Positions 3,001 through 26,463 of a stretch of 64,000 bases of DNA are shown here, in pieces (position 1 is the first letter of the stretch; each line of letters begins with the position of its first letter). Source of the DNA: Candidatus Peregrinibacteria bacterium HGW-Peregrinibacteria-1. Its GTDB lineage: Bacteria > Patescibacteriota > Gracilibacteria > UBA1369 > LOWO2-01-FULL-3. Location: contig PGYE01000001.1 of the NCBI GenBank assembly GCA_002839505.1, forward strand, positions 395,995 to 459,994, given 5' to 3'. A program made the position numbers and the translations under genes. The notes under the pieces were generated by a model. The model was not told the origin of the DNA and did not search any database. It saw only the letters and a program-made list of their open reading frames with translations.

Positions 3001-6000
3001 TGCAATATCACCCACAAACTCGGGCAGCTGTGGAATTTTTGGAGGTCTCGGTAAATCCGGCAACTCCGGAATCGGCAATGGCGGTAAATCTGGCAGCTTT
3101 GGCATCGTGAATTCTGGAAAATCCGTGATCCAATCCGGGACCTCAAACCCTTCTAGCTCCAAACTAATTCTCGTATCAAGCTCAGGTAATGAAAGTTGAT
3201 GTTGTAAAATCAAGCTCGGTAAATCCGGAGACAGATTGATATCCGGTAAAGACGGCAACACAATTGGTTCCGGTAAAAATACAATATCCGGCCATAATAT
3301 CTCGGTACCCATCTTCACCTGCGAAATATCAAACACAATATCCGGCCACTTAGGGAATTGAATAATTGGAGGTGTCGGAATAACCGCGAAAAATTCCATT
3401 AAGATGCCCAGTTTACTAAACCGATCATTTTTACACTCATCACAAGACTCTTGATAATCTACCATTAGATTCAAAAGCACGCTCCAATCTGAAATAGTCT
3501 TGGTTACTTCAGTTGCAGCATCCAGCCAAGCTTCCACAGTCTTCTGCTGGCGGTTAATATAGCCACCAGTCACCTCGGTAATCGTATCCAAATAAGAAAT
3601 CAGTGCAGTTGCGTATTTTGTCTGAGCATGACGCAAATCCAAGATTTCATTTGGAAGTCTTGCCAAACTATCCAGCTTATCCATCAATAAATTCATCGAT
3701 GCGATAAAGTCATTTATTTTCAATGTAAACCGATCACAAAGAACCTTCCGATGATCATTCTCATCACACAACCAGAACTCCGGCAATTTAGCCAATTGAG
3801 CTTCTTGAGACTTAATCCACAACTCCACCTGTCTCTTATACTTCTCCACCTCCGCATAAGAAATAGCAGGAATCTTCACCACAATCTCCTTACTTTTCAG
3901 ATTAATCAGCGGCAAGCCGTTCAATGCCCGTAAAATATCATTCATACTTTGAAACATCGATACATCGCCAATATTATCGCCAACGCGACTGAGATCTTTG
4001 GTGAAATCATCAATAACCCCGCCAAAATCAGGATAAATAAAATAGAAATCTGGCAGATCTAAAAGCTTATTGAATATTTCTTCAGTTTGCGCGTCATACC
4101 AATCCACCAAGAATGATGGGAATCCTGGCACTTTCACATTCACACTTCCACCTCCACTAACCGGCACCGCCGGATCACTAAATGTTCCGCCACCATTAAT
4201 AACGGTATTATCGACACTACCACTACCCCCATTTCCATCGGACACAATCGTGGTCAAACCACTGTCAGGATCGGCATTTACATTTGTCGCATTGGCAATC
4301 TCACCACTAATATCCTCCAAAAAGTTAGGACACTCTCCAAAAACCGACGGCGGAATTGCAAATGCATAGCACACCCCTCCCACCGGAGTCGGAGCACCAG
4401 TACAAATAGCCGTACCAAGTCCCATACTCAAAGTCGGACTAACATAAAACCGCACCGATGAAACCTGATTTGAAGGGTAGAAGAAAGAAAATCCTAAGAG
4501 AGTAGGTGTACCCAAAGCAAACACCGCCACCCCCGGTGTCTCACCATCCGGAACAAAAAAGGCTTTGTTAAAAGGTAATGGCGAACATCCGCCACCCGAA
4601 CATCTAAAGCTGGCCGCCATACCCTCAACATCATTGGCCAGTCCAGCCGCAAAACTTTCCGAATTTCCGACTGGACCATTGCTCCAACTATCAGGGCACC
4701 CATCATTATCCAAATCCTCAAACATATTGTCATAAAGGCCACCCGTCACGGCTTGCAAATCACTAATTACATCCGGTGAAAGGCCACTATCTCCATTTAA
4801 ATCATTCTCATAACTATCCTGAATAGATTGATATTCATCCAATTCACTATCTGCGAGTAACACACTTTCCTTAGCAACTTCTTGCAATTGATAGAGCACT
4901 TCACCGCGTTCATTAAGCCCCGCATCCGACATCAGATAATACAAAGCTCCCGTCGGATTAAGGCTTGGCCTAACCCTTATATCCAGATAAAAATCATTTG
5001 CTCCCACTCTGCTACCATTATTTTTCACAAAATCTCTTCCCAAATCAAAACTAACCGCCGGAATACTTCTCACCACCATATCAAAGCTAATCGTTCTTTT
5101 TCCACCTGACGGGACACTAATATTAGTAATCACCGCGCTCCTCAACCCGAGGCCAGTAGCTTCAAAAGTAAGATCATCATTACATCCAACATCCAAGCAC
5201 TTCAGACTATCAGGTTTGATCTCCATACTTGCCGGAATCAAGTCCGACAACACCATATTATTTATCGCCGGCCCACTATTCGCCAAAGTTATTAAATAAC
5301 GAATCGTATCACCAACCGCCACACTTCCACCATTAACATCATTTACCGACTTCTTGGAATTTAACCCCAAACGGCCATCAGCAGGCAAATTAACGAAAGA
5401 TTCATTATTACGGATTCCCTGATTATTTAGAATCCCAATCTCCAGACTCGTCGCACCTTCAGGCACACTAACTCCCGGATAAAACACAAACAAACTACTC
5501 TTCGCCTCCACCTGATTATCGATTTGATAACCGAAATTAAAACTACCGCCATGATTTTCACTCAACCCCAGACAACGGTTACCGGATTTTTGATTATAGA
5601 AAATTCGTACATTCGCCGCCTCATCAGCCACCACCAGATCCTGACATTGATCATTATTCAAATCAGCCACCTTAAGCTCCGTCACCTTACCGCTAACCGC
5701 TGGCTCAAAATTCGATCTTACAAAGACACCATTACTATTTTCAAACAAAGATAAACACTTATCACCAACAGTACATTCCTCCTCCGTACTCACCAAAAGA
5801 TCATCAAAACCATTACCATTAAAATCTCCCGTCACAGCGCTTCTTATTCCTCCCACAGCTCTCAATATATTTCCCCGATCTTTAAATCCTCGATTACCAC
5901 CTTTATTTTCCAAAAGCCCAATATTACCATTTTCATAAATCACCAAAGCATCCATCAAATCATCGCCGTTATAATTGAACTCCAAAAGCTCCAACGGCTT

Positions 6001-24559: not shown

Positions 24560-24576
24560 GAAAATTATTATGTGGC

Positions 24577-24905
24577 ACAATCTTATTCTGATTGGGCGTA
24601 TCGGAGCCTTTGCGGGCCGGTGCCACCTACAGACTGAATTCAGGATAATCTTCACCTATTACTTATTTTGCGTCATTATTACGATTATGTCGAGCGATCA
24701 TGCATCGCGAGACATGGGCAAGGCGTACATGCTAGCCGCAGCCCATTTAATCGCTGAAAGCAAAATAAGTATGGTGAAGATTACCTAAAAGGCGAGATCT
24801 GAGGTGCAATTTCCCGCCGGGGAAATTGACACCGTCCCAAATAGAATAAGATTGTCCCCCGCAGCCCACTTAATCGCTGAAAGCAAAATAAGGATGGCGA
24901 AGATT
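24577..24905. repeat. Nested imperfect inverted repeat plus 47-nt direct repeat (palindromic/structured intergenic element)
   Basis: Outer arms 24577-24596/24836-24855 (18/20 complementary); inner arms 24646-24671/24760-24783; central hairpin 24687-24715; hairpin CAATTTCCC-GCCG-GGGAAATTG at 24807-24828; direct copies 24736-24782 and 24859-24905 with 3 mismatches. Confidence 0.85.
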
Positions 24906-24969
24906 GCCGCACCCTTGACTAAAACACAAAAAAGAATTATAATTACAAAATAATATTTTTCACAACCTA

Positions 24970-26463
24970 ATGGGTTACGAACAAACAATCAATCAGATTA
25001 TATCGCTCATCAACAGGAGTCAGCGCATCCTAATATTACCATCGACACCCGTTGACGGAGACTCCGTTGGCAGTGCCATTGCCTTCTATATCGTACTCAA
25101 GAAACTCAATAAAGATGTGACCGTAGTTTGCAACGACCCCATACCCGATGTTCTCAAATTCCTGCCAAAAATTTCCAGCATTAGCCAAAACATGAACTCA
25201 TCCAATGATTTCATTATTTCTATTAATGACCGAGAAATAGAAATAGCCAATCTTCACACAACCCGAGAAGGAGATAAGTTTAATATCGTAATTACCCCAA
25301 AAAATCGCAATATTACCCCCGACGATGTCACATTTTTGCGAGGAGAATCTGAGTATGACTTGATCATCACAGTTGACTGCGCCGAATTAAAACAGCTCAA
25401 AGGCATCTATGAAAACAACACCGAACTCTTCCACAGTTTACCAGTAATCAACATCGATCATCACATCTCAAACACCAACTACGGAAAAATAAACCATGTC
25501 GATGTCATGGCCTCCTCCGCCACTGAAATAATATTTTCCATCCTTAAACGGCTATCAGAAGAACATAACACTCAGCTCATCGATGAAGATGTTGCCACGC
25601 TCCTGCTCACCGGAATCATCACCGACACCGGAAGCTTCCAAAACGCCAACACCACACCCCGCTCCTTCGCCAAAGCCGCTGAACTCGTCGCATACGGCGC
25701 TCGCCAACAAGAAATCATTCAACAAATTTACAAAACCAAGCAACTCAGCCAGCTCAAGCTCTGGGGCCGAGTTTTATCAAAGATCCAAACCGATGAAACC
25801 CACAAAATAGTTTGGTCCGTTGTAACTCAACAAGACCTCAAAGACACCGAAAGCCTAATGGAACAAACTGGCGACATCATTGATGAATTGATGACCAACG
25901 CTCCAGGCGCTGAAGTCATAGTTTTAATCAAAGAAAAGGAAAACGGCCAAATATCTGGAAGTATCAGAACGACACATGCCAGCGTCGATGCCTCCGCAAT
26001 TGCCGAACATTTTGGTGGCGGGGGACACACCCAAGCTGCCGGATTTACCATGCAAAACACCACTCCCTCAGACGCCGAATACAAAATCATCAACCACATC
26101 AAAGACTACCAAAAAAATCATCTTAACATTAAAGATGGAGCCAAAGCGCCTTCCTCAAAAAAGAGCCAAAAACCTATTATTGATGTCCAAAAACTGATTG
26201 CCAAGATCAAAGAAGTCCAAAAAGTTAACCAAATAATGCCAACTATTGATGACTCCTCCCACCTTAAAATCTATCAACCAGAAGATACTGCTGATCAGGA
26301 TGACCTGGATCAAGAGGAATCCGCACAATCAATAAAAAAAGCACCAGAAAAACAACCAAAATCTTCCGCCAAAAACTCCATTAAAAGCACTCCTTCACCA
26401 AAATCCGAGCCACCAAAAACCGCGACCGATATTCACAAAAACACCTATCGCTTTGAGGAATAA
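24970..26463 (+). CDS. DHH/DHHA1 phosphoesterase, NrnA-like
   Basis: PVDGDSVGSAIAF, VINIDHHISNTNYG, GGGGHTQAAGFTM; C-terminal low-complexity Lys/Pro/Ser-rich extension. Confidence 0.88.
   Translation: MGYEQTINQIISLINRSQRILILPSTPVDGDSVGSAIAFYIVLKKLNKDVTVVCNDPIPDVLKFLPKISSISQNMNSSNDFIISINDREIEIANLHTTREGDKFNIVITPKNRNITPDDVTFLRGESEYDLIITVDCAELKQLKGIYENNTELFHSLPVINIDHHISNTNYGKINHVDVMASSATEIIFSILKRLSEEHNTQLIDEDVATLLLTGIITDTGSFQNANTTPRSFAKAAELVAYGARQQEIIQQIYKTKQLSQLKLWGRVLSKIQTDETHKIVWSVVTQQDLKDTESLMEQTGDIIDELMTNAPGAEVIVLIKEKENGQISGSIRTTHASVDASAIAEHFGGGGHTQAAGFTMQNTTPSDAEYKIINHIKDYQKNHLNIKDGAKAPSSKKSQKPIIDVQKLIAKIKEVQKVNQIMPTIDDSSHLKIYQPEDTADQDDLDQEESAQSIKKAPEKQPKSSAKNSIKSTPSPKSEPPKTATDIHKNTYRFEE

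Follow-up and report, generated by a model that had tools for sequence, protein, structure and literature searches.

Nested families of palindromic hairpin elements in Peregrinibacteria, candidates for mobility as folded single-stranded DNA

The attC sites of integrons are long imperfect palindromes in which the fold is conserved more than the sequence, and they are used, like the attP site of the CTX phage, as folded single strands. REP and BIME sequences, which are associated with RAYT (Y1) transposases, are palindromes dispersed between genes and presumed to move in hairpin form; REPs measure 20-40 bp and carry a GTAG or CGTC tag at one end, and the CGTC-tagged REPs occur without a dedicated transposase (PMC3733652). 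The IS200/IS605 elements transpose as single strands on the lagging strand, by way of folded hairpins and in an orientation tied to replication (PMC6006769). ERIC/RU-1, NEMIS, RUP and other MITEs are 100-200 bp long, intergenic, strongly palindromic and present in many copies (PMC2229807), and MITEs mostly have terminal inverted repeats and target duplications.

The two families described here, A and B, resemble each of these systems in part. They are dispersed intergenic palindromes like REPs and BIMEs, and lack a dedicated transposase like the CGTC-tagged REPs. However, they are three-way-junction hairpins of about 135 nt with conserved loops and variable feet, no tagged unit of 20-40 bp was found in them, and their source genome has no cognate Y1 transposase. 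Their size, palindromy and copy number are those of ERIC and similar repeats, whereas conservation is confined to the centre and the ends vary. With IS200/IS605 they share the replication-tied orientation and, in the mechanism proposed below, the folded single-stranded hairpin, but A and B appear to contain no coding sequence and the source genome has no TnpA Y1 gene. As in attC sites, the fold is conserved over the sequence, but cassette arrays and conserved R and L boxes were not seen in A and B, whose ends, read by eye, vary freely between copies. On this comparison, A and B would use the folded strand much as REP, IS200/IS605 or attC hairpins do, while lacking the defining features of each. 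The literature on repeats or one-directional replication in the lineage yielded no description of such elements, and A and B are probably undescribed families of Peregrinibacteria.

Organization of the locus and of its two families

The window, as we call the 64,000-nucleotide stretch of DNA that was analysed, is part of a single-contig genome of 998,424 bases. Between the genes for a RecJ-type protein (DHH, DHHA1, RecJ_OB) and a DHH/DHHA1 (NrnA-like) protein, both as first described, lies an intergenic palindrome of about 335 nt (24574-24908), which is a pile-up of A and B hairpin elements. The original prediction of nested inverted arms and a direct repeat describes its geometry well. The outer arms (24574-24596 and 24836-24858) are 23 nt long and 87% complementary, the inner arms lie around 24646-24671 and 24760-24785, and the direct repeat, given earlier as 47 nt, extends over 50 nt (24736-24785 and 24859-24908, 92% identical). 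The two small ORFs (24570-24788 on the + strand and 24785-24988 on the - strand) are present as reading frames, and both lie in repeat DNA. In a shuffle test the predicted folding energy was -130.2 kcal/mol (z -7.55) for one strand and -137.2 kcal/mol (z -8.04) for the other, and no shuffled sequence matched the native energy on either strand.

Read along the + strand, the locus begins with A positions 1-50 (24574-24624), which comprise the left arm of an A element and the left portion of its core and are 98% identical to the A consensus over 24578-24624. A linker follows (CACCTACAGACTGAATTCAGG; 24625-24645) that is like those of the A[B] composites L002, L003 and L004, and then a complete B element nested in A (24646-24785), 93% identical to the B consensus over its full length and with an R1 core match of 100 bits at 24672-24762. 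The A element continues at 24788-24858 with a hairpin (GGTGCAATTTCCC/GGGGAAATTGACACC) and the right arm, and is 97% identical to the A consensus over 24788-24854. The last part (24859-24908) is the right half of a second B (B positions 88-137), 94% identical to the B consensus, and is taken as the remnant of an outer B. The 50-nt direct repeat is therefore explained by the two B sequences of the locus, one complete within A and the other reduced to its right half. In the original suggestion of a MITE-like or REP-like element with a duplicated end, the dispersed palindromic element is borne out, and the duplicated end was dropped in favour of two nested families with half of a further copy. The end of the repeat abuts a predicted sigma-70-like promoter of the downstream DHH gene (TTGACT-17-TATAAT, 24915-24943, + strand, 11 of 12 consensus matches), which is context outside the element.

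Searched separately, A (about 135 nt) and B (about 137 nt) were found at 18 intergenic loci of the source genome. The elements stand alone, in pieces, as A in B (L008, L009, L013 and L015) or as B in A (L001-L004), and in being small, apparently non-coding, dispersed and palindromic they are MITE-like. Since 17 further intergenic loci carry the families, the position between two DHH genes, which had seemed noteworthy, is incidental. The gap between an element and a right-hand + gene is often 60-73 bp in this genome, with the element just upstream of the promoter of that gene.

Conserved fold and covariation

The A and B elements have the same build, in which long, variable, complementary arms close a three-way junction with two hairpins and conserved unpaired letters. 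Hairpin 1 of the nested B (24688-24714, + strand; TGTC-GA-GCGAT-[CATGC]-ATCGC-GA-GACA) carries the conserved CATG loop, and hairpin 2 (24715-24745, + strand; TGGGC-AA-GGC-[GTACATGCTA]-GCC-GCA-GCCCA) a loop that reads GTACATGYTA in 44 of 51 parsed sequences. Across the 55 distinct sequences of the B core alignment both loops are near-invariant, while the sequence of the stems and arms changes in almost every copy. Each of the 24 stem pairs changes on both sides, with 95.8% of cells paired. The covariation score of B is 0.915, against 0.181 +/- 0.012 in shuffled and at most 0.123 in slid controls; the alignment was fitted to the structure and its counts lean that way, although the margin over both controls is very large. 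For A the score is 0.568 against 0.182 in the control. The stems of both families thus covary across genera, and on the three points where the original prediction might have failed (copy number, conservation and stability of the fold) the locus proved to be multicopy, conserved and stably folded. The arms of B are paired yet unrelated in sequence between copies, so that the centre is conserved and the ends are not, even within one genome. A kissing interaction between the CATG and ACATG loops was considered and rejected, since both loops of one copy read CACG and in other copies a single loop is changed, so that complementarity is not kept. In family f15 (L155, L156 and L195), the loop of B hairpin 1 holds an extra stretch of about 40 nt with a hairpin of its own (TTTTGCGAAGCAAAA-like).

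A structured RNA had been among the first proposals, and a complex conserved fold with near-invariant loops would suit a multi-copy non-coding RNA whose core is transcribed and whose loops act in the RNA. RNA folding also slightly favours the motif strand (42 of 55). However, G-U pairs are common intermediates in structured RNA, and in the B core they are nearly absent, at 18 of 1272 cells (1.4%) compared with 33 of 530 pairs (6.2%) in 25 tRNAs from the examined loci. The genes beside B elements in relatives occur in all four arrangements, so that the direction of transcription appears immaterial, and the element strand follows replication instead (see below). The rarity of G-U pairs and the four arrangements together favour a process at the DNA level. 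Rfam searches at gathering and relaxed thresholds returned no family for the elements and, at gathering, nothing but one tRNA; a weak match to RT-3 (E 0.17) was not seen in the relatives searched. An RNA is therefore an unlikely explanation.

Distribution and comparison of filled and empty sites

A first search with B gave weak matches in other genera. With a covariance model built from a six-sequence alignment, the B core was found in 23 of the 89 genomes of the order, at 1-9 copies per relative, and in none outside the order among 292 genomes sampled from the class, a search in which weak matches may have been lost to stricter filters. When 85,462 species were scanned for a B pattern, 21 stretches matched, and each came from an assembly named Peregrinibacteria, Peribacteria or Gracilibacteria. 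The A family has covarying relatives in three other genera, and phage and plasmid records held no match to the elements.

In one genus (g3), flanks that are 80-94% identical allow sites to be compared directly. At the first locus G002, G025 and G028 carry an element and G020 has the empty site; at the second, G025 carries an element and G002 has the empty site. The search for empty sites and target-site duplications proposed at the outset thus yielded the former in related species, with no duplication evident at the two empty sites examined. Transposition was not seen directly, and the empty sites could be losses. At the first locus the element of G025 differs from that of G002, and in G028 a G002-like element has next to it the left arm of one that resembles the G025 element, which indicates that nesting or replacement recurs beyond the genome of the window. 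Recent spread is seen in the source genome alone, because the copies in G002 have arms unrelated to one another. These sites also bear on whether A and B are ordinary MITEs, that is, leftovers of DNA transposons moved in double-stranded form by a transposase that reads terminal inverted repeats. Size, palindromy, intergenic siting and dispersal fit bacterial MITEs (PMC2229807), but the ends are not conserved even among the copies of one genome whereas the centre is, the two empty sites lack a duplication, and the orientation of the elements is biased. We consider this explanation quite improbable.

Template switching between hairpin arms is a described way to keep stems perfect (PMC8794818), and it would produce paired changes in one step. 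In orthologous elements, 15 of 22 and 10 of 16 changed pairs are compensated at two sites and 3 of 17 at a third, and three further pairs are unclear, so these sequences support template switching unevenly.

Comparison of G020 (L176:2069-4135) with G002 (L165:7133-7283) revealed in G020 a stretch of about 1.9 kb that holds a gene for a cysteine-rich protein of 549 aa, with a B element directly behind the stop codon. Both the gene and its B are missing from G002 and G025, and the two may have been gained or lost together.

Replication strand, candidate enzymes and a proposed mechanism

Every substantial match to A or B lies on the + strand of the source chromosome, and the few matches on the - strand are short arm matches, as expected from palindromy. 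The strands of the neighbouring genes at the 18 loci are (+,+) at eight, (-,+) at seven, (+,-) at three and (-,-) at none. By the usual rule the leading strand is G-rich, and the exposed lagging-strand template would then be the complement of the motif as written. GC skew was measured along the chromosome (samples L095-L134) and within the window. It is negative in 37 of 39 samples outside the window, in every segment of the window and also over the final 13 kb of the chromosome, whichever strand the genes are on, at about -0.1 to -0.47; the two exceptions, near 185 kb and 535 kb, have small positive values. The pattern suggests that the chromosome is replicated mostly in one direction. Skew of one sign over the whole chromosome, independent of gene strand, has been described in the Microgenomates order UBA1400 (PMC7143001), which the present chromosome resembles in its continuous skew; it belongs, however, to the Peregrinibacteria, of which earlier complete genomes show normal skew (PMC4736985).

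The GC-negative (C-rich) strand carries 43 of the 53 B cores found in relatives (one-sided binomial 3e-6 if independent, although the counts are not fully independent and include shared inheritance) and 9 of 10 A elements. Measured on the element strand, the skew at third codon positions is -0.188 for genes that lie on that strand and -0.210 for genes opposite, and this likeness links the bias to replication and not to transcription. The f15 genomes have the opposite orientation trend, with small skews. At one seemingly orthologous site (L166 and L182, element near 4001), the elements of G002 and G025 have opposite orientations, as could result from a template switch that inverted the centre.

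Replication bias and conserved loops would also suit a host DNA site, whose folded strand might serve for lagging-strand priming or protein loading under mostly one-directional replication, or as a gene insulator. The near-uniform skew of the source chromosome and the vertical inheritance of several loci in g3 agree with such a role. However, most genomes of the order, the near-complete G012, G022 and G027 among them, gave no B match, relatives have only 1-9 copies, empty sites exist, and nesting destroys older copies. A host site is thus improbable, though no more so than an RNA.

No mobilising enzyme was found. The Y1 (RAYT-type) transposase (PF01797) is absent from the source genome and occurs in 5 of the 23 B-positive and 21 of the 66 B-negative genomes of the order; it was rejected as a partner, as its presence does not follow B. 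Tyrosine recombinases occur in 88 of the 89 genomes, with two in the source genome, and being nearly universal they are uninformative as candidates. Their ubiquity, and the precedent of attC and CTX attP, would accommodate integron-like attC sites or other folded single-stranded sites used by Xer, and in G020 a tyrosine-recombinase gene is followed, after about 110-150 bp, by a B element (L175, G020:C4:18584-19347). Yet the arm ends have no conserved boxes, the elements are scattered and not arrayed as cassettes, and element-free genomes have the recombinases equally. This is the least probable of the explanations, and a very unlikely one.

We lean, by a small measure, towards A and B being non-autonomous mobile hairpins whose folded single strand is used in step with replication. 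This strand, exposed as the fork passes, would be the form recognised, presumably by a protein that reads the loops. Every new copy would then take one orientation relative to replication, and the insertion site would often be the hairpin of an element already present. Template switching, selection for the hairpin, or both would keep the arms complementary, and only the unpaired letters would then be conserved over time. A more far-reaching proposal, which we hold to be possible but doubtful, is that A and B represent a new class of mobile DNA. What defines it would be the shape of the folded single strand, with its fixed loops, and not the sequence of the ends; its members would be moved by a non-Y1 enzyme and locked to the replication strand, and would comprise at least two families that parasitise each other.

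The nearly wobble-free covariation of these elements is a warning that strong covariation need not mean RNA. If the proposed mobility is correct, mobile elements can be conserved by shape alone while their arms change freely, and ordinary repeat finders would miss them across species for this reason. In that case the strand bias of the elements would also show directly in which direction the chromosomes of uncultured bacteria are replicated, and the source genome would be one of a small number whose skew keeps one direction along almost the entire chromosome.
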